Positions 51,136 through 62,214 of a stretch of DNA of 64,000 nucleotides are shown piece after piece. The position numbers and the translations under genes were made by a program. Position 1 is the stretch's first letter; each line of letters opens with the position of its first letter. The DNA lies in the NCBI GenBank assembly GCA_002354735.1, contig DEMD01000009.1:410705-474704 (forward strand), in the 5' to 3' direction. Source of the stretch: Gammaproteobacteria bacterium UBA2679 (GTDB lineage Bacteria; Pseudomonadota; Gammaproteobacteria; Pseudomonadales; Oleiphilaceae). The notes beneath the pieces are model-generated. The model saw only the letters and a list, made by a program, of their open reading frames with translations, was not told the origin of the DNA and ran no database searches.

Positions 51136-51825
51136 TCAATCCTCCGCTGAAGGCCGGACTTCTTCCAATAGCGCCCTGACAACTTCATCGACCTGCTGCT
51201 GGCTATCATTGGCGCTCATGCCGAGGAAGTTATGATTGGCAACGCCGAACCAGACGACCTCACTGGCCACCTTGTCGGACCGCGCCTCAGCATCGCCGTC
51301 AAGGGCCGCGGGGCGGGGCTTTCTGAGTTCTACCGCGAAGCGTCCGGAGGTATAATCCTCAGGCAGCACATCCCTCGCGCCACCCATCAGGAGCCCACCT
51401 CGACGCACGCCGAAACCAAGCGACAGTGTGCTTGGGCGATACCTCACTCGCTCCTCAGACTGCAACGTGAAATCGACGATCAATAAGCCTTCCGACGCCT
51501 CAGCGCCAGGGGTCTGTTCCAGTCCCATGGCCTTGAGCTCTTTCGCAATGGCTTCCTGTATTCGATTGACCACGAGCGGGTTGACCAGATCGGCCGACTT
51601 GGTTACTGCGGTGACCGGCTCTGCAAAGCGGAAAGTTGAGTAATCAGCCAGGGCAAAACCATCGTCCTTGTCGGTCTTCACCGAGTAGCCCGCGCAGGCC
51701 TGCAGCAGCATCAGGATCAGAGCAATAAGCCCGGCCTGCAACAGCCGACCCGTTCCAGCTGACGGGAGGTTGGCTGGCAGCGCTTGAGTAATACTGGGGA
51801 GTGCTCTCATGTTGGTCTTTCTCAT
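51136..51825 (-). CDS. DUF4136 lipoprotein
   Basis: Predicted lipoprotein of 229 residues; lipobox LLQAC near residue 44 after a long n-region. The domain DYSTFRFAEPVT ... LVNPLVVNRIQEAIAKELKAMGL, then IVDFTLQSEERV, is the DUF4136 pattern found in envelope lipoproteins of unknown role. ATG 51825 directly follows the stop of the DUF2914 gene; a second ATG at 51810 would shorten the n-region. The pair is probably one transcript. Confidence 0.82.
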   Translation of the reverse strand: MRKTNMRALPSITQALPANLPSAGTGRLLQAGLIALILMLLQACAGYSVKTDKDDGFALADYSTFRFAEPVTAVTKSADLVNPLVVNRIQEAIAKELKAMGLEQTPGAEASEGLLIVDFTLQSEERVRYRPSTLSLGFGVRRGGLLMGGARDVLPEDYTSGRFAVELRKPRPAALDGDAEARSDKVASEVVWFGVANHNFLGMSANDSQQQVDEVVRALLEEVRPSAED

Positions 51826-52752
51826 CTATTGAATCTTCACTTGAAAATGTCCTGAGGCCAGAGGCTTTCCGGCTTTATCACGTATTTCAACCTGCCAGGC
51901 GCCTGCCTGGCTACTCGCAATGGCCACGCTGGAAGTGACCACAGCTTTTGATGTATGCACTGTGAGAGGCAGACTCTGCACCTCGCGACCGCCCTGGAAC
52001 CAGAGCAGGCGTAGCGTTTCGCCTTCCATATCCTCGACCTCGGCAAAGAGGTGAATCGTGGTCTGGCGGCCCTTTGCCACTTTGACAGGATCGCTCAACA
52101 GCTCCGCAGGTTCGCTATAGCTGACCTCGTCAGTGATTACGGCGCGCGCAACCTTATTGGATTGAACGGTCATGAGACCAGCCGGCGCTGGGCCTTGCTG
52201 CGGGCTTGGGACAGCACCGGGCTGCCTCACCGGCTCATCCTGGACCGTCAGACGATATTTCGAGCGCTCAGCCTCGCTCTCTGGTGCGAGTACAGAGGCC
52301 GTAGCGGCCGGTTGCTGCTTCTGATGAACCTGGTCACTGAGTGATTCGGCCAGCGGACGCCCGCTGCCGAAAGCATTTTCACGCGTGGCGTCTCGCGGCA
52401 CGGGGACCCGTTGAGCGCTCCCCCCCGCGGCTTGCCCAGCAGCCGCTTGGGCAGGTTCTTGAACCGATTCACTCGTAGCGACCGGGTCGACCGGCTCTAC
52501 AAATACAGGCGCTTCAGTAGCTTCGGAAGGCGCTGGCGAGGCAATCTCGATGTCGCCATCACTCGCCAGTCCCGCCTCGTCGTCATCACCGGATGCCGCC
52601 CAGAAATAGAGCGCGGCGATCAGTCCAAGTAGAACGACGCCTGCCCCGATGATCCGTGGCCAGTGATATTGAGTGACATAAACGGAGGGTGACAATGGCC
52701 GCTCACTGGAAATCTGCGGGTTGTTCACCGATAAACGAAGTCTCTTTGGCAT
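51826..52752 (-). CDS. DUF2914-domain membrane protein
   Basis: Bitopic protein of 308 residues: cytoplasmic tail of ~32, one membrane span (about 33-51), an acidic and Pro/Ala-rich linker to about 190, and a C-terminal beta-rich DUF2914 domain (KVAKGRQTTIHLFAEVEDMEG ... WQVEIRDKAG). The function of DUF2914 is unknown; the fold is immunoglobulin-like by appearance. It is followed without a gap by the DUF4136 gene. Confidence 0.8.
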   Translation of the reverse strand: MPKRLRLSVNNPQISSERPLSPSVYVTQYHWPRIIGAGVVLLGLIAALYFWAASGDDDEAGLASDGDIEIASPAPSEATEAPVFVEPVDPVATSESVQEPAQAAAGQAAGGSAQRVPVPRDATRENAFGSGRPLAESLSDQVHQKQQPAATASVLAPESEAERSKYRLTVQDEPVRQPGAVPSPQQGPAPAGLMTVQSNKVARAVITDEVSYSEPAELLSDPVKVAKGRQTTIHLFAEVEDMEGETLRLLWFQGGREVQSLPLTVHTSKAVVTSSVAIASSQAGAWQVEIRDKAGKPLASGHFQVKIQ

Positions 52753-52871: not shown

Positions 52872-55511
52872 TTAACGCAGGAATTTTTGCTGCTTGTCAA
52901 ACAGTGCTGCTGGGGACTTGGCCAGTCCACTGACCCATACTGGCCGGCTGGCCGATTGCAGAAAACGCTCGAGAGTCATTGGCTTACCGAAATAGTAGCC
53001 CTGTACACGGTCAGCGCCCAGCCTGGCGATCTGCTCAAGCGTGTTGCTGTCCTCTATACCTTCCACTACGGTTTCGAGCTGCAGCGTCTTCGCCAGCTTC
53101 ATGATCGTCGCGATGATACTGGCATCGTTCTCTGCCTCACGCATGCGCTTGACGAACTCGCGGTCGACCTTGAGCTCATGGATGGGCAACTGACTCAGGT
53201 AACTGAACGATGAATAACCCGTGCCAAAATCGTCCAGCGAGAGTCGCGCGCCGTGCTGAACGAGGTGATTCAGGTTCTGCAGCACACTACTCATGTTTTC
53301 GATCAAAGTGGACTCTGTCACCTCGAAGGTCACCTGAGAGAGATCTATCGCTTCTTCACGTGCCCTTGAGACGATATGAGCGGCGAAGCCTGGACGCGTC
53401 AGGTTATGCACCGATATGTTGATACTGATATTGAAGCCGGGCGTGCGTTTGTTGATCTGCTGTATGCACCCAAAACTGAGATCGATAATCAGCAGGGTCA
53501 GTTTATCGATCAGGTTTGCGCTTTCGGCCAGCTTCACAAACTCATCAGGCGGAACGTCTCCGTGGCGAGGAGAGTGCCATCGAGCCAGCACTTCCGCGCC
53601 GATAACCTGATACGTGAGTATATCGACCTGCGGCTGCAGTACCACCGAGATCTCCTGACTTTCGAGAGCCTCCGCCAGCGAGGCAATCAGCTGCAGGCGA
53701 CGCCGCCCGCTCTGTTCGATACTGCTGTGATACACAGTAATCGGATCGCCATGCATCATGCCGCTTTCACAGGCGGAACCAGCCCGCTGTAGCAGATTCA
53801 GCGGTGCGTCGCAGTCAGTGGGATAGAACGCGATGCCGCAGAACGCGTCGGTATGTATTGATATGCCATCGACCTCATAGGCTCTACTGAGTCTTGCACG
53901 CAGAGCGTCTGCAGTATGTTGAACCCCAGCATCACCTTGTCCAGATCTGACGAGGCACACTACGGAACCAAATTCTGGAACGCAGACGAGGCCGGTTCTG
54001 TCCCGCTCAAGGCGCACTGTATTCCTGGCAGTCTGCAGGTAGTCATTGGCTTCGGCGACGACCATGCGAAACAGCGACTCGGCTACCGACCGGCCCAGAC
54101 TGAAAATGGCACCACGACATTGCGGCAGGCGGAAGTACAAGACCGCAAAAACATTGTCTTCAGCGTGCTTGCTACGCATGAGCGCCTGCATGCGATCGAT
54201 GAGTGGGAACTCGTTGGCAACCGAGGTCACAGGGTCCCGCGTGGCCCGCTCGAGCGCCTGCAGTTCTACGGCCTTCATTTTCTCCGCCATCTGATGCCGC
54301 TGCTCAAGCGCCTTCATTCGGCGACGGCGATCTTCCTTGATGCGATAGGCCAGCGCGAAAGACAGCAGCAAGACTTCGGCTGCAGAGCCGAACTGCAGCG
54401 CGTGACTACTGATATCGGTCGAGGCTACTACGCCGAAGACGCTCAGCAGATAGAGCGCGAGACCGCCGCAGAAGAGCAGCCAGGCGGCCATGAAATAACG
54501 CGCCACGATGACACCCTGCTGCAGCGCGTAAGCGCCGGCATAAATCACGAAGAGCATCGCTATGCCAGAGCAGATGCCCGCAAATCTGGCACCCAGCTCA
54601 GGCCATACCAATGTGACCACGAGCAGTAGCGCGGCGGTTCCCATGAGCAACCGGAAAGTCCGATTGATGGCCAAAGGGATTGCATTCTCGAACAGTAGTG
54701 CACGCGCAAACATCAGACCGAAAATACAGCTCGACAGCGTGGCGACAGTCAGCAGCGTAATACTGTATTGAGGGTCGCCTGGCCAGAGATAGACTTTGTC
54801 CAGGCCCGAGATGGGTAACATGGCACCAATGATACTGCCGAGATAGAGCACGTAGAACAGGTACTGCCGGTCAACCGTGCTGAGCAACAGGAAGAAGTTG
54901 TAAACCAACAGCGCGGCAAGCAGCCCAAGATAGCTGCCCCAGACCATGACCTGCGTTCGCTCATTGGCGATAAAACGATCAGGCTGCCAGAGCTCGAGTG
55001 GAAGCTGTAGAGAAGTCGAGGATTTGGCGGATATATAAATCGTACCACCGCCGGTGAGCGAGGCTGGCAGATCGATGACTGGGAAACGGTTGTCGTGCTG
55101 GTCTGGTCCCAGATAGCCGAAGCGCAGCAACTTGCTCATATTGCCCTGCCCGTCGTCATGGTAAACCGTCAGGTCTTCAAGCAGTGGGTACGGCAAGGCG
55201 AGCGTGGCACCTTCAAGCGCGTCTGACGCTTCGAAGCGGATCCGAATCCACACCTCGTATTCGGAAAAGCCAAGGTTGACCGGGGCTGCGCTGGGATTTG
55301 CCTGCCAGTTACTGAACTGGCCTATATTCTCTGCGTCGAGTGCATCCGCATGATCAAGCGTGTAGGCGACAAAGGGGTTCAAATTCAGTCGACTGAAGCT
55401 CTGATCGACATTGACTGGCGGTACTGCAGCCATAACTGTAGTGCCGAATCCAGCCAAGATGAGGATCAGATAAATTTGTCGAATTGTGCTCGTCCAGAGA
55501 ATCCACTGCAT
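52872..55511 (-). CDS. 7TMR-DISM receptor with degenerate GGDEF and EAL domain
   Basis: Receptor of 879 residues: signal peptide, a periplasmic 7TMR-DISMED2 domain (about 35-180), seven membrane spans (about 185-395), a short coiled coil, a GGDEF-like domain and a C-terminal EAL domain. The GGDEF motif is lost (the equivalent strand reads CVPEFGSVVCL), so no cyclase activity is expected. The EAL signature is E640-V-L with the glutamate kept, and DDFGTGYSSFSYL is intact, so phosphodiesterase activity is plausible. Divergent from the PilZ-Rossmann gene, 180 bp apart. Confidence 0.9.
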   Translation of the reverse strand: MQWILWTSTIRQIYLILILAGFGTTVMAAVPPVNVDQSFSRLNLNPFVAYTLDHADALDAENIGQFSNWQANPSAAPVNLGFSEYEVWIRIRFEASDALEGATLALPYPLLEDLTVYHDDGQGNMSKLLRFGYLGPDQHDNRFPVIDLPASLTGGGTIYISAKSSTSLQLPLELWQPDRFIANERTQVMVWGSYLGLLAALLVYNFFLLLSTVDRQYLFYVLYLGSIIGAMLPISGLDKVYLWPGDPQYSITLLTVATLSSCIFGLMFARALLFENAIPLAINRTFRLLMGTAALLLVVTLVWPELGARFAGICSGIAMLFVIYAGAYALQQGVIVARYFMAAWLLFCGGLALYLLSVFGVVASTDISSHALQFGSAAEVLLLSFALAYRIKEDRRRRMKALEQRHQMAEKMKAVELQALERATRDPVTSVANEFPLIDRMQALMRSKHAEDNVFAVLYFRLPQCRGAIFSLGRSVAESLFRMVVAEANDYLQTARNTVRLERDRTGLVCVPEFGSVVCLVRSGQGDAGVQHTADALRARLSRAYEVDGISIHTDAFCGIAFYPTDCDAPLNLLQRAGSACESGMMHGDPITVYHSSIEQSGRRRLQLIASLAEALESQEISVVLQPQVDILTYQVIGAEVLARWHSPRHGDVPPDEFVKLAESANLIDKLTLLIIDLSFGCIQQINKRTPGFNISINISVHNLTRPGFAAHIVSRAREEAIDLSQVTFEVTESTLIENMSSVLQNLNHLVQHGARLSLDDFGTGYSSFSYLSQLPIHELKVDREFVKRMREAENDASIIATIMKLAKTLQLETVVEGIEDSNTLEQIARLGADRVQGYYFGKPMTLERFLQSASRPVWVSGLAKSPAALFDKQQKFLR

Positions 55512-55691: not shown

Positions 55692-57053
55692 ATGAAGTCG
55701 TCAGAATCGCTAAATAGAGCGGAACAGAGGCGCATGCCTCGCCATGAATTTTCCGGTCAAGCCCAACTGCTGATTGATAAGACTACAGTTACTGCGCACT
55801 GTCTCAATATTTCAAGTGACGGTATATTGTTGAGTATTCCTGCCGAAAGTGAAATCGCAGCTGCCGGTATTCGCAAGTCCTCACATATCAATCTCTGTAT
55901 CGACTCCTTGCCAGTGCAGAACCTCAGAGCCGCGGTGATGCACCGCAACGCAGGAACGATAGGCCTGAAATTCGATACGCTGATCCACTCTCACATCCCT
56001 GAACACGAGATGCTGATCGACAAGCCAGCGAAGAAAACTGGCAGTCGTTTCGGACTGTACCAGATGCGCAAGCAGGTCTGGATACAGGCTCGTAGATGGA
56101 GCATTTTCGGCATCAACAAGTTCGCCCGTAATGCGATCTTGAGGGCTGTTCAACCCGGTTTTTTATTTGCGGTCTATGGAAATAAGCGAGATGTTTCGCG
56201 TTATATCAGTGAGGACCTGCATGCGCGCCTGCCCGAAATTTCCCTGGGCAACTATATCAGCAAGGGAAAGTTCAAGGGATTCGTGGTGGCATCCAAGTCC
56301 TTCGAACACGAGCTTGCCGAAGATTCGGCCAAGGTCGTGAAGTATCTCGATAACTTGCGCAAGGTCTGGCCCTCAGTAAACAAGGTTGCCCTCGTGGGAC
56401 GCCTGCCGACTTTCGCCATGAAGGCGCGTTATCCCATAGAAGCCCCATTCGTCGAAGGCTCACTCGGTACCCGCTTCATGATTCTGGAGCTGGCGAAGGA
56501 ACTGAAGGCTCGACCGGAATATCAGCAGGAAACCTCCATAGTGGTCCTGGGTGGTGCCGGGAGGATTGGGCGCGCGTTGTGCGACGATCTCGCCAAATAC
56601 TTCGATCAGGTCATAGCCTTCGACCGGCGCTACGATATCGACTTCCAGTCGACCGAGAAAATACTCGAAACTTCAAATCCCATGCATTTCGGCGACCATA
56701 AGCTGTTCATCGTCCTCACGGCCCGCGGTTCAGCTGTCGAAGAATTCCTGCCCTTCCTGCCACGCGGCGCAATTCTGGCGGATGACACGCATCCGTCGAT
56801 TGAGACCCCGCTGCGTCAGGCGCTCAGGCGTCGAGGCATCGAAGTCGAAAAAACCGTGCTGACCAACCCGGAATTCACGGCCTTCCCGAAGATGCCGCAG
56901 TGGAGCAAGGGCAGCATTCCAGGCTGTCTGGTTGAAGCGCTGGTGCTGCTCGAAGAACCTGAAGCCGACAAGCAGACCATTGAAGAATTCTCCAAAACAG
57001 CCGTTCGCCTTGGTTATAAGGCCCAGCTCGTCAAACCCTTCACGCCAGAGTGA
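55692..57053 (+). CDS. PilZ domain fused to a Rossmann dehydrogenase-like domain
   Basis: Protein of 453 residues with an unusual layout. Residues ~10-115 form a PilZ domain with both c-di-GMP motifs intact: R13-xxx-R17 and NxSxxG (39-44). A connecting region (~125-280) contains GLYQMRKQVWIQARRWSIFG and KVALVGRLPTF. A Rossmann segment follows with GxGxxG at 288-293 (VVLGGAGRIGRAL) and an acidic residue after the second strand (VIAFDRRYD), suggesting NAD(H). No membrane span is seen. The fold order loosely recalls shikimate-dehydrogenase-like or acyl-ACP-reductase-like enzymes, but I cannot assign a reaction. It is flanked by GGDEF/EAL genes on both sides. Confidence 0.85.
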   Translation: MKSSESLNRAEQRRMPRHEFSGQAQLLIDKTTVTAHCLNISSDGILLSIPAESEIAAAGIRKSSHINLCIDSLPVQNLRAAVMHRNAGTIGLKFDTLIHSHIPEHEMLIDKPAKKTGSRFGLYQMRKQVWIQARRWSIFGINKFARNAILRAVQPGFLFAVYGNKRDVSRYISEDLHARLPEISLGNYISKGKFKGFVVASKSFEHELAEDSAKVVKYLDNLRKVWPSVNKVALVGRLPTFAMKARYPIEAPFVEGSLGTRFMILELAKELKARPEYQQETSIVVLGGAGRIGRALCDDLAKYFDQVIAFDRRYDIDFQSTEKILETSNPMHFGDHKLFIVLTARGSAVEEFLPFLPRGAILADDTHPSIETPLRQALRRRGIEVEKTVLTNPEFTAFPKMPQWSKGSIPGCLVEALVLLEEPEADKQTIEEFSKTAVRLGYKAQLVKPFTPE

Positions 57054-57228
57054 TGGGACCCGCCACGGAAGGCGGCCCCACTGTTACAAACGCTTACAAA
57101 GAAAGACTGCGCCAGTCCTCAGTTTTGTCAATCTTTTACAATTGCCCACTACCAGCCTGATCAACTGCTCTCTAGAATTATTGGAGCAAGACCGGTGTGG
57201 TTGCGTAGCGTTCTGTGAGGCAGCGAAT

Positions 57229-59316
57229 TTGAGCGGTAAGGTTGATACGGAACTGGCTCAGGCTGCACAGCAGCTGACAGTTTCTACTAAAGTGCTGCCA
57301 CTACTCTTCCTGGCACTCGGCTCGATTTCCACCCTGGCTACCGTTTGGGTATTTGCAGCAGGCGATAGTGGCTACAGTGTCGGCATTCTGGGCAAGCTGA
57401 GCGTGGCTGGCGCGCTTTGTCTGCTTGGCACGCTTGCACTCTATCTCTTCCAGCTCAACAGAACCCTCTCCCGTAGTATCGCCGAAAGTCGGCAACAGGA
57501 CCTTCGTCTCAAGAAGCTCGGCAAGGCTGTTACCAAAAGCGGCTGTGCCATCGCGATTCTCGACAGCCGCGGGCGCGTCGAGTACATCAATCAGCAGTTT
57601 GAGCAGACTACCGGCTACTCGATGCAGGAGATCATTGAAAACGGCATGCAGATCCTGCACCCGAAGATTTTTGTCGGCGGTCAGCTCAAGCTGATTAACC
57701 GGACTGAGTGGCTCAAGGACGCATGGACCAGCGAAGTTCATCTTACCCGTAAGGATAGTGCGGTAGTCTGGGCATCAGTCTCAGTGTCCGTTGTCGACAA
57801 CAATGAACTGCCGTTGGCTGCAGAAGCCGAGCGCGACTCGAGCTGCGTTGGCAAGGCTCAGGGCTATGTCGTGTCTGCCATCGACATCAGCGAACTAAAA
57901 AACCTGAACCACGAGATGGAGCGTCTTGCACTCAACGACGACCTTACCGGCCTGGCCAATCGGCGTCTGTTTGTAGATCGGCTCGAAATGCAGCTCAGGG
58001 TTTCTCGCCGCGAAAAGAATTCGATCGCACTGCTGTTTCTCGATCTCGACAAATTCAAGCGTATCAACGATACCCTGGGTCATGATGCAGGCGACCAGCT
58101 CCTGATCACGGTGGCGGAGCGACTGAAGCGCTGCGTGAGGGCCAACGATACCGTCGCCCGTTTCGGTGGCGATGAATTTGTAGTCCTGCTCACAGACATC
58201 ACCGACCCGCTCTCCGTCACGCACATTGCGCAACTCATCCTCGCGTCGCTGAAGCAGCCGATCACGCTAAACCAGCATGAAATTATCGTCTCAACCAGTA
58301 TTGGCATCACCCTGGCGCCGACTGACGGGTTGGAAGCCGAAAGTCTGGTGAAAAATGCTGACCTGGCGCTGTACAGGGCCAAGGATCAGGGCCGCGACTG
58401 CTACCACTATTTTACAGAGGAACTGAATGCGCAGGCTATTCGCCAGCTTGTGCTCGAGCAGGAACTGAGGCTGGCACTGAACACCAACCAGTTCAGTCTG
58501 GCGTTCCAGCCTCAGTTCGATTTCAAGCAGGGGCGCCTGATCAGCGTCGAGGCCCTGCTGCGCTGGAATCACCCAACCCACGGTACCGTTTTTCCTAACG
58601 ACTTCGTCACGGTAGCCGAAGAGACAGGCCTCATTGTGCCAATCGGAGACTGGGTGTTACGCAACGCCTGCAAGCAGATCAGACAGCTGCAGGTTGTCTC
58701 TGGCCGAAATATCAAGGTTGCTGTCAACCTCTCAATGCGTCAGTTCCACGATGAACACCTTGAGGACACTATCGCCCAGGCACTGCATTACTCCGGGCTC
58801 AAGGCCAAGTATCTCGAGCTTGAAGTCACCGAAAGCATGCTGATGGGCGATGTGGAAATGGTCGTGGCAAGACTGACCCGTTTGAAGTCTACCGGGGTGA
58901 GCATCGCTATCGATGACTTCGGATCGGGTTACTCTTCACTGAGCTACCTGAGAAAATTGCCGGTAGACGTCCTCAAGGTCGACCGCGCCTTCGTACGCGA
59001 TATTCCCGAACAGCTTCATGATATGGAAATCACTGCAGCCGTGATTGCCGTAGCTCACAAGCTCGGTCTGAAAGTGGTCGCCGAGGGTGTCGAGAACATC
59101 GACCAGCGTGACTTCCTGATGATCAACCGCTGCGACTATGCGCAGGGTTACTTCTTCTCGAAGCCCCTGAGCTACACTGGCCTGAACGAGTTCATGCAGC
59201 GCAATGAGTGTCGCCAGAAGTTCGAACTGAGTCTCTACCCACCTGAAGACACTGTGGGACAGGCCGGCAGCGAGAACTGGCTATCGACCTTGCCCACGAA
59301 TACCACGTCCCACTAG
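57229..59316 (+). CDS. PAS-GGDEF-EAL c-di-GMP signalling protein
   Basis: Membrane-bound protein of 695 residues: two spans near the N-terminus (about 22-75), a PAS domain (about 90-225, IAILDSRGRVEYINQQFEQTTGYS), GGDEF with intact GGDEF at 313-317, and EAL with E441-A-L and DDFGSGYSSLSYL. Both activities are possible. The frame is open back to 56932 inside the upstream gene, but TTG 57229 is chosen: GAGG lies seven bases upstream and the product begins M-SGKVDTELAQ just before the first span. It lies 175 bp after the PilZ-Rossmann gene. Confidence 0.9.
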   Translation: MSGKVDTELAQAAQQLTVSTKVLPLLFLALGSISTLATVWVFAAGDSGYSVGILGKLSVAGALCLLGTLALYLFQLNRTLSRSIAESRQQDLRLKKLGKAVTKSGCAIAILDSRGRVEYINQQFEQTTGYSMQEIIENGMQILHPKIFVGGQLKLINRTEWLKDAWTSEVHLTRKDSAVVWASVSVSVVDNNELPLAAEAERDSSCVGKAQGYVVSAIDISELKNLNHEMERLALNDDLTGLANRRLFVDRLEMQLRVSRREKNSIALLFLDLDKFKRINDTLGHDAGDQLLITVAERLKRCVRANDTVARFGGDEFVVLLTDITDPLSVTHIAQLILASLKQPITLNQHEIIVSTSIGITLAPTDGLEAESLVKNADLALYRAKDQGRDCYHYFTEELNAQAIRQLVLEQELRLALNTNQFSLAFQPQFDFKQGRLISVEALLRWNHPTHGTVFPNDFVTVAEETGLIVPIGDWVLRNACKQIRQLQVVSGRNIKVAVNLSMRQFHDEHLEDTIAQALHYSGLKAKYLELEVTESMLMGDVEMVVARLTRLKSTGVSIAIDDFGSGYSSLSYLRKLPVDVLKVDRAFVRDIPEQLHDMEITAAVIAVAHKLGLKVVAEGVENIDQRDFLMINRCDYAQGYFFSKPLSYTGLNEFMQRNECRQKFELSLYPPEDTVGQAGSENWLSTLPTNTTSH

Positions 59317-59766: not shown

Positions 59767-61356
59767 TCATTGACTGTGTTTGTGTCCTACCCATCCAACT
59801 GTATACAAATCGCGCCGTCTATCAAGAAAATTGCGAACGGAACCTTCGTTTCGGATGAATTCCAGCTTGCTCAGATCGAGATCGACGATGAGGGTCATCT
59901 CGGTATTGGGCGTCGTTTCGGCCATGATGGCATCATGTGGAAAGGCGAAGTCCGATGGTGAGAACACCGCTGACTGAGCGTACTGGATATCGAGACTGTC
60001 CACCTGCGGCAGGTTACCGACTGACCCGGCGATCGCCACGTAGCATTCGTTTTCGATCGCCCGCGCCTGTGAACACAGCCTGACACGCAGATAGCCGTTC
60101 TTGGTGTCGGTCCAGAACGGCACGACGAGTATCTGCACATCCTGGTCCGACATCAGACGGGCCAGTTCCGGAAATTCGGAGTCATAGCAGATGAGTATGC
60201 CGATGCGACCGAAGTCGGTATCGAACACCTTGATCTGCTCACCGCCCTGCATGTACCAGTCCTTCTTTTCTGAAGGGGTCGGATGGATCTTGTACTGGCT
60301 CTCGATGGTCCCATCCCGGCGGCAGAGATAAGCGATGTTGTACAGCTCATTGTCTTCAAGTACCGGCATCGAACCTGCGACGATATTGATGTTGTACGAC
60401 ACCGCGAGCCGACTGATATGTTCCAGCAGTTGCTCGCTGAAGCCGGCCAGAAAGCGGATGGCCTCGACCGAGTTTTCGTGTTCCTTCAGACCCATCAATG
60501 GCGCACAGAAGAACTCCGGAAATACGGCCAGGTCGCACTTGTAATCCGATAAGGCGTCGGTGAAGTATTCAAACTGCTTCAGCAGCTCCTCTACACTTTG
60601 GTGTTCGCGCATCTGCCATTGCACACAGCCTACCCTTGCGGTCGTCTTCTTGCGACCAATGAGCTTGCGTTCCTGCGGCTGGAAATACATGTTGTGCCAG
60701 ATCAACAGGGTGGCATAGCCCTTGGATTCCTTGTCTTCAGGCAGGTATCCGGGTAGCAGCTGCTTGACTTCGAAATCATTGGCGAGTTGAAAGGTGAGGA
60801 TGGGATCGTAGATCTCCCGCTTGCTGACCTTTTCGATATACTCGAATGGCGACAGCGTATCGGAGACCGCCTTGTATCCGGGAATGCGGCCACCAGCAAT
60901 GATTGAACGCAGGTTGAGGTTCTTGCACAGCTCCTTGCGGGCCTCGTAAAGGCGACGGCCAAGGCGCATGCCGTGATAATCAGGGTCAACGAAGACATCG
61001 ACACCGTAGAGCACGTTCCCCTTGGGATCGTGTGTAGTCAGGTAATAATCGCCGGTGATTTCCTCATAGGTGTGGCGATCACCGAACTTGTCGTAGTCGA
61101 CGATCGCTGAAAATGCGGCTGCGACGACCTTGCCGTTATCCTCAATGCAGATCTGACCGTCAGGAAAGCGTTTCAGCTGACTACTGTATTCACGCTTGGT
61201 CCAGCTGCCGCCAAGGTGGGCGTACACACGCTCCATGATGCTGCGGACTTCATCGAAGTCAGAGAGCTTGAGGCTCCGCAGCAGCAGCTTGTGTTCACTG
61301 GTCTCGTCCAGAGAAGAGACTTCTCGCTCGATCGAATGATCGTCATCTTTCATCAT
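59767..61356 (-). CDS. GNAT acetyltransferase fused to carbon-nitrogen hydrolase (nitrilase superfamily)
   Basis: Two-domain cytoplasmic enzyme of 529 residues. The N-terminal ~215 residues are a GNAT fold (VFVDPDYHGMRLGRRLYEARKEL is the acetyl-CoA site). The C-terminal half is a nitrilase-superfamily amidase with the full triad: E281 (FPEFF), K356 (QYKIHP) and C390 (ILICYDSEFPE). This fusion is known in proteobacteria, but its substrate is not established. ATG 61356 is chosen because AGGA lies seven bases upstream; the frame extends ten codons further. It follows the thioesterase-like gene by about 90 bp. Confidence 0.9.
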   Translation of the reverse strand: MMKDDDHSIEREVSSLDETSEHKLLLRSLKLSDFDEVRSIMERVYAHLGGSWTKREYSSQLKRFPDGQICIEDNGKVVAAAFSAIVDYDKFGDRHTYEEITGDYYLTTHDPKGNVLYGVDVFVDPDYHGMRLGRRLYEARKELCKNLNLRSIIAGGRIPGYKAVSDTLSPFEYIEKVSKREIYDPILTFQLANDFEVKQLLPGYLPEDKESKGYATLLIWHNMYFQPQERKLIGRKKTTARVGCVQWQMREHQSVEELLKQFEYFTDALSDYKCDLAVFPEFFCAPLMGLKEHENSVEAIRFLAGFSEQLLEHISRLAVSYNINIVAGSMPVLEDNELYNIAYLCRRDGTIESQYKIHPTPSEKKDWYMQGGEQIKVFDTDFGRIGILICYDSEFPELARLMSDQDVQILVVPFWTDTKNGYLRVRLCSQARAIENECYVAIAGSVGNLPQVDSLDIQYAQSAVFSPSDFAFPHDAIMAETTPNTEMTLIVDLDLSKLEFIRNEGSVRNFLDRRRDLYTVGWVGHKHSQ

Positions 61357-61447
61357 GTATAATTCCTGAATACTGCAAGCTGCCAATAGGCAGCCTTGAA
61401 TGGAGAACTGGAACAGAGAACGGCCGGCTCAGGCGCGGCTCGTCAGG

Positions 61448-62011
61448 TCAGCGACTGTAACGCATCTGATAGTAACCGATACCTTCGGCGACGAGTTTTC
61501 CAGTACTATCGGTCATGGTACTGGCGAGCTCGAAGCTGGCACGGTCAGACTGTGTCATCTGCGTCTCAAGCTGAGTCAGTGTCTCGGGTGAGAGCTGACA
61601 TTCAACGGAGACATCGGATTTTGCAGCCGCAATATAGTTGATATCGTAACGCTCGAGAATGGGCACGAAACGCCCACCGAAATCAAACAGCACCAGCACG
61701 CCGCCCGGAATCTCTCCCAGGGTGAACAGCGCACCGGCATACATCGTACCGAGGTGGTTCCTGTTGCGCCCGATCGGCACTTGGGCGCGAATATAGCCTC
61801 GCTCGAGCGCGAGCACCTTGAACCCGCAGCGTCGGGCGAATGGTATGGCAAGACCTACAAAGGTATTGACGGCAACCAGGCCGCTGGCACTTCGGAGGCC
61901 GCTGAGCGGAAGTGTATCCGATGCCATCCACTGTCTGAGACCGCCATAAAGGCTGTGTTGAATAGCCATGAACCTGCTGTACCCCGGCAACTTGCGATGA
62001 TGATAGGGCAT
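61448..62011 (-). CDS. Hot-dog fold thioesterase-like protein (DUF4442/YiiD-C type)
   Basis: Protein of about 187 residues with a single hot-dog domain; NRNHLGTMYAGALFTLGEIPGG is the helix-and-turn typical of the DUF4442/YiiD C-terminal group. Members are thought to hydrolyse acyl-CoA or acyl-ACP, but this is not shown. ATG 62011 has AGGGG nine bases upstream; ATG 61969 is a shorter option and a TTG at 62053 a longer one. Upstream of the GNAT-nitrilase gene on the same strand. Confidence 0.75.
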   Translation of the reverse strand: MPYHHRKLPGYSRFMAIQHSLYGGLRQWMASDTLPLSGLRSASGLVAVNTFVGLAIPFARRCGFKVLALERGYIRAQVPIGRNRNHLGTMYAGALFTLGEIPGGVLVLFDFGGRFVPILERYDINYIAAAKSDVSVECQLSPETLTQLETQMTQSDRASFELASTMTDSTGKLVAEGIGYYQMRYSR

Positions 62012-62214
62012 CCAGTGACGCCCCTGTCCTTTCTGACACGTATCATAGCGCAATAACCATGCAAGATGCTGTTTCTGCCCAAGCTGCGGAGCCTGAACTG
62101 TAGTCGTTTGCGCCCGACTCCCTTATACTGGGCGCCTGACTTAGCACAGCTACTGCATAAGAATAGGGAGTTGGGAAAACTCCGAATCACGCCAGTCAGC
62201 AGAGGGGATATCGA

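Follow-up and report, generated by a model that had tools for sequence, protein, structure and literature searches.

In a 64,000-nucleotide stretch of contig DEMD01000009.1 from Gammaproteobacteria bacterium UBA2679 (the whole stretch is termed the window), we identified a 453-residue protein (55692..57053, plus strand) that joins a PilZ domain to a thioester-reductase-like domain, and a conserved partner gene beside it for a 7TM-DISM protein with an EAL domain. Our favoured interpretation, held with modest confidence, is that the fusion protein acts as an acyl-thioester reductase that responds to cyclic di-GMP (c-di-GMP). Both halves are of known kinds; neither their combination nor its pairing with a predicted 7TM-DISM phosphodiesterase appeared in any paper found in the open-licence literature.

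The family was defined by a phmmer search in which 7997 candidates were scored and at least 140 proteins, with the window's own copy among them, were found at E <= 1e-3, while a profile search found at least 153; 120 of the 140 and 120 of the 153 were listed. Source-named organisms among the phmmer matches were mostly Marinobacter or another gammaproteobacterium. A first alignment (A1) held 35 proteins hand-chosen from the first 121, and the full alignment held the 133 best-scoring members, counting the window protein and its database copy. Two distant Rhodobacteraceae proteins (L030 and L031; 307 and 309 residues), which showed 25–28% identity over part of their length, were excluded from the counts; L030 has no PilZ domain and a different C-terminus without the PGCLVEALV motif described below.

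The reading frame of the window protein opens with ATG and its placement is correct; the reverse-strand frame that was translated is interrupted by stops. The database copy (P0002) is 439 residues long and begins at Met15, where R13 would be lost, but of the 118 aligned rows having a residue at that position 117 have Arg, which makes the upstream start more likely. The PilZ domain (residues 11–97; 55722..55982, plus strand) scored 30.1 bits against PF07238 (cut-off 22.5), and 30 of the 35 members of the hand-picked alignment matched the same family at E <= 0.1. As the original prediction claimed, both c-di-GMP motifs can be read in the sequence, R13xxxR17 at 55728..55742 and N39xS41xxG44 at 55806..55823 (both plus strand). 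A full PilZ span was present in 124 of the 133 aligned proteins, where R..R and [DN]xSxxG were each kept in 117 and both were complete in 112; among the remaining 12, several merely miss the protein start and five (P0092, P0106, P0111, P0118 and P0125) have Glu replacing Gly. The PilZ fold in the model of the window protein matched c-di-GMP-bound PA0012 (8u0i), as did that of a homologue, with 9b8v and 4rt0/4rt1 as other PilZ matches. This combination of motifs and fold suggests that the PilZ domain of the window protein would bind c-di-GMP.

The C-terminal domain (residues 156–449; 56157..57038, plus strand) is, according to the models of the window protein and a homologue, an acyl-ACP (acyl carrier protein) reductase (AAR)-type thioester reductase fold of the COG5322-like superfamily. 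The AAR fold was found over the whole domain in both models, whose two nearest folds were AAR, acting on fatty acyl-ACP, and the carmabin TAD, a peptide synthetase domain; AAR kinship was also backed by a profile alignment run with controls. The clean GxGxxG nucleotide site that had been reported from the sequence proved to be GGAGRIG (residues 287–293; 56550..56570, plus strand), aligned with GATGDIG of AAR; the segment VLG287-G288-A-G290-R-I-G293 fits GxGxxG and also the GxxGxxG of acyl-ACP reductases. Six of its positions (G287, G288, A289, G290, R291 and G293) are invariant in all 133 aligned proteins and I292 is found in 132. With at least 140 family members, the motif is no chance match. 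Also invariant throughout are DDTHP (residues 364–368; 56781..56795, plus strand), which aligned with IDGGYPK of AAR and is similar to DDSGPHC of the carmabin TAD, and the Cys and Glu of PGCLVEALV (56919..56945, plus strand). By alignment, Cys412 and Glu415 of this last motif fall at AAR Cys294 and Glu297, making Cys412 the putative catalytic residue. The earlier guess of an acyl-ACP-reductase-like role was thus strengthened by fold, by controlled profile alignment and by Cys412, which never varies and aligns with the catalytic Cys of AAR. The original prediction had named the absence of a Rossmann fold and the loss of PilZ motifs from most homologues as grounds for refuting it; both were looked for and neither was found.

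An acidic residue after strand beta2 favours NADH. In the window protein, strand beta2 (predicted at residues 306–310) is ended by Asp311 (56622..56624, plus strand), which is invariant in 133 of 133 proteins, whereas AAR, an NADPH enzyme, has Ala-Arg at the equivalent position and the carmabin TAD domain, whose crystals contained NADH, carries an acidic side chain no more than one position away from Asp311 in the alignment. For these reasons the cofactor is probably NADH rather than NADPH.

The two domains are joined by a basic linker (residues 117–152; 56040..56147, plus strand) with a computed net charge of +8 and helices predicted at residues 117–144 and 146–152. It was also checked as a membrane helix and found to be basic with a low hydrophobic moment.

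The partner gene encodes an 879-residue 7TM-DISM protein (52872..55511, minus strand) that is divergent from the fusion gene across a 180-bp spacer, with Pfam matches to DISMED2, 7TM, GGDEF and EAL. Its GGDEF match is weak (25.1 bits against a cut-off of 23.8) and degenerate, with the GGDEF signature gone, and its EAL domain (residues 611–844; 52980..53681, minus strand) matched PF00563 at E 2e-65 and keeps the motifs EVLARW, DDFGTG, LKVD, EGIE and QGY. EAL activity needs the residues of these motifs. The partner is therefore predicted to be a membrane protein that hydrolyses c-di-GMP, and DISMED2, 7TM and EAL domains were also detected by Pfam in four partner orthologues.

To survey gene order, 31 loci were fetched, of which 29 remained once L030 and L031 were set aside, and every one of the 29 has, adjoining the fusion gene, a gene that matches the partner's 7TM-DISM part, the weakest match being 217 bits (L028). 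The partner lies downstream on the same strand in 19 loci, at a spacing of 15–54 bp (mostly 20–25) from the match end, and is divergent in the other 10. Presence of the two genes also coincided across genomes. In the genus to which G003 belongs (Marinobacter daqiaonensis, the source of locus L004) the fusion was carried by 17 of 124 genomes, and a partner orthologue occurred in exactly those 17, adjoining by coordinates, with scores of 498–985 bits in comparison to 335 for the best other match; in G094 the orthologue is split across two contigs. In the family around G005 (HdN1), 9 of 15 genomes carried the fusion and the same 9 carried the partner, divergent in each (725–875 bits in comparison to at most 332). 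The partner alignment (A4) combined the window with 11 of the surveyed loci; those loci match it, and orthologues score high against it, by construction. In wider samples the fusion was found in 13 of 390 genomes of the order and a match in 6 of 369 genomes of the class, one full length and five over the N-terminal PilZ-bearing part only; the candidates scored per genome were at most 4 in the class sample, 10 in the genus partner search and 4 in the order sample.

The two gene arrangements are separated by a single branch in the family tree, with support of 93/84 (under the tool's bar of 95/80) and recovery in 90% of bootstrap trees; the window protein itself sits on its own long branch (3.02) and its placement is unsure. 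Shared inheritance as one block explains part of each genome sample, and the pairing is argued for more strongly by the existence of two gene orders. We conclude that the fusion gene and the 7TM-DISM/EAL gene are partners.

If the window protein acts as a c-di-GMP-responsive acyl-thioester reductase, an acyl group on ACP, coenzyme A (CoA) or another 4'-phosphopantetheine carrier would be passed to Cys412, as in cyanobacterial acyl-ACP reductase. Hydride would come from NAD(P)H, probably NADH given Asp311, bound at GGAGRIG, and an aldehyde would be released. Binding of c-di-GMP by the PilZ domain would alter how active the reductase is, how it oligomerises or where it is located, in one direction or the other, and the 7TM-DISM partner with its intact-looking EAL domain may hydrolyse c-di-GMP near the reductase upon a periplasmic signal. 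We put forward more tentatively the wider proposal that c-di-GMP switches an acyl-carrier redox step directly, that a dedicated transmembrane phosphodiesterase encoded by the neighbouring gene sets this switch and that an outside signal may in this way decide whether acyl chains exit lipid metabolism as aldehydes. c-di-GMP is known chiefly for its roles in motility, exopolysaccharide production and adhesion. The best known enzyme switched by its own PilZ domain is BcsA, and we know of no lipid-metabolism redox enzyme that carries a fused PilZ domain. If the proposal is true, a biofilm and motility signal would have a direct link to aldehydes derived from acyl groups. The partnership with a single phosphodiesterase gene, held through two gene orders, would also offer a compact test system for local c-di-GMP signalling, consisting of one sensor enzyme, one receptor enzyme and one measurable product.

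Several observations weigh against this interpretation. Fusion gene and partner are passed on together as a block, so that neither the 17 genomes nor the 9 count as independent events. Nine of the 133 aligned proteins do not have a full PilZ span, and Glu stands in place of Gly in [DN]xSxxG in six of the 133, namely the five named above and P0021, which belongs to those nine. Two loci retain reductase and partner without a proper PilZ domain, which is absent in L006 and reduced to a faint remnant in L020. For the reductase domain, the family profile run against PDB sequences at E <= 10 listed PilZ chains and short Rossmann matches but neither AAR nor TAD; hhalign against a single AAR sequence gave a probability of only 51.8 (P 1.5e-4); and the long-chain acyl-ACP reductase equivalog TIGR04058 (cut-off 449.7 bits) did not appear among the matches of P0001 at E <= 10, with 2 of the 35 aligned members reaching it at E <= 0.1 (best E 0.073). 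A simple sequence match being absent, the AAR link is drawn from fold, profile–profile alignment and motif register. The fate of an aldehyde is a further difficulty, as aldehyde-deformylating oxygenase (PF11266) was found in none of eight carrier genomes at E <= 0.001, the window's genome not being among them, and no clear aldehyde-using enzyme was seen among the few neighbour genes annotated. The same PF11266 search gave matches in 2 of 14 control genomes, S. elongatus included, one of them over the cut-off, and an alkane pathway was rejected as the aldehyde's fate in the carrier genomes. Lastly, the homologous thioester reductase domain of TamH took acyl-ACP (on TamA) and not acyl-CoA (PMC9594044), and a simple acyl-CoA assay could fail for this reason.

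The loci L006 (upstream of 10016) and L020 are from a pair of Marinobacter species, M. salinexigens and M. nitratireducens, and form sister rows in the family tree.

The missing oxygenase is also consistent with a catalytic reductase under the same c-di-GMP control that uses another thioester chemistry or carrier, such as a short or branched acyl group or a polyketide-like or peptidyl thioester, or that reduces its substrate fully to the alcohol. The two nearest folds act on different substrates, and AAR relatives include transaminase-fused domains (PigE, 4ppm; TamH, PMC9594044). The present data do not separate substrates and only few neighbour genes are annotated, and we regard this alternative as possible, if rather unlikely. 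The two loci that keep the pair without a proper PilZ domain, the constancy of gene pairing and the basic helical linker could instead be interpreted as a PilZ domain that mainly docks or localises the enzyme, in a complex with the 7TM-DISM/EAL protein resembling FimX-PilZ-PilB and controlled by contact rather than by bound c-di-GMP; complexes of degenerate GGDEF, EAL and PilZ domains are described in PMC7288161. Pure docking would not require the two c-di-GMP motifs, both of which 112 of 124 homologues retain in full, nor the intact EAL motifs of the partner, and we judge it improbable. Pfam and NCBIfam detected almost solely the dinucleotide motif in the C-terminal domain, as might be expected of a non-catalytic sensor that reads NADH/NAD+ and gates something else, but invariant Cys412 and Glu415 at AAR active-site positions are unexpected for a pure nucleotide sensor, which makes this reading very improbable. 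An amino-acid or shikimate-type dehydrogenase is scarcely credible: the source name 'predicted amino acid dehydrogenase' on P0045 and P0062 and weak NAD-binding matches point that way, and the fold scores disfavour it. The shikimate-dehydrogenase-like role that had also been guessed is disfavoured, with 2hk9 (TMt 0.52 at 8.1 Å) the sole such row among 50 shown, none among the 50 rows shown of a second fold search, and no Pfam or NCBIfam match of the window protein to a shikimate or amino-acid dehydrogenase. Generic short-chain dehydrogenase/epimerase, 2-hydroxyacid dehydrogenase, TrkA and VanH identities were rejected for the family because their matches in the window protein cover only about 30–50 residues at the dinucleotide motif and the whole-domain fold matches point elsewhere.

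In comparison to known systems, the window protein is about 18% identical to the cyanobacterial AAR of S. elongatus (PDB 6JZU/6JZY), from which it differs by its N-terminal PilZ domain, the acidic residue (Asp311) that ends beta2, failure to match TIGR04058 and a family whose eight searched carrier genomes have no aldehyde-deformylating oxygenase. The carmabin TAD (PDB 9E4X, 9E4U, 9E50, 9E56) belongs to a peptide synthetase, named 'amino acid adenylation domain protein', with no PilZ in the entry titles, and no paper on it was found by title in the open-licence literature. PigE, TamH and KecF likewise have an AAR-like domain fused to another domain, theirs being a transaminase and not a signal receptor. 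A coupled TamA-TamH assay yielded the amine from fatty acid, with acyl-ACP and a presumed aldehyde as intermediates (PMC9594044), and an aldehyde step was proposed for KecF (PMC6498172). BcsA, Alg44 and PA0012 have the PilZ fold, RxxxR and [DN]xSxxG in common with the window protein, but involve a glycosyltransferase, secretion or a stand-alone PilZ domain and no redox enzyme. PMC7288161 reports that BcsA autoinhibition is lifted by c-di-GMP binding and that PilZ domain layouts in Pfam number 221.

The fusion gene was originally described as lying between two c-di-GMP enzyme genes. This position is true and the 7TM-DISM/EAL side recurs in 29 of 29 loci, whereas the downstream PAS-GGDEF-EAL gene (longest open reading frame 56932..59316, plus strand, with the real start probably beyond 57056 and with intact GGDEF and EAL motifs) had no counterpart immediately next to the fusion gene in the loci that were mapped, no separate search being made. 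It was rejected as a partner and is probably incidental; EAL genes are located farther out in several family loci.

Further genes were seen around the module. On the minus strand of the window, 59767–61386 encodes a GNAT acetyltransferase fused to a carbon-nitrogen hydrolase, with relatives in five further loci, each with the divergent arrangement, and this recurrence is read as shared gene order. A DUF4442/YiiD_C thioesterase-like protein (61448–62053, minus strand) lies about 4.4 kb from the reductase gene, and DUF4136 and DUF2914 proteins (51136–51825 and 51826–52752, minus strand) are encoded next to the 7TM-DISM/EAL gene and share its strand. A flavin reductase-like protein with FAD_binding_6 and NAD_binding_1 lies near the module in L010 (12658–13467, minus strand) and has relatives in L002, L003 and L029, giving four divergent-type loci. 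Finally, a protein of about 700 residues with a full AAR-like domain, including the Cys, was found in four of eight carrier genomes searched (nine genomes in all), at L032:472–2559, L033:391–2532, L034:1339–3456 (minus strand) and L035:445–2589; its N-terminal half had no Pfam match in the two tested, and its AAR-like part scored best against PigE.
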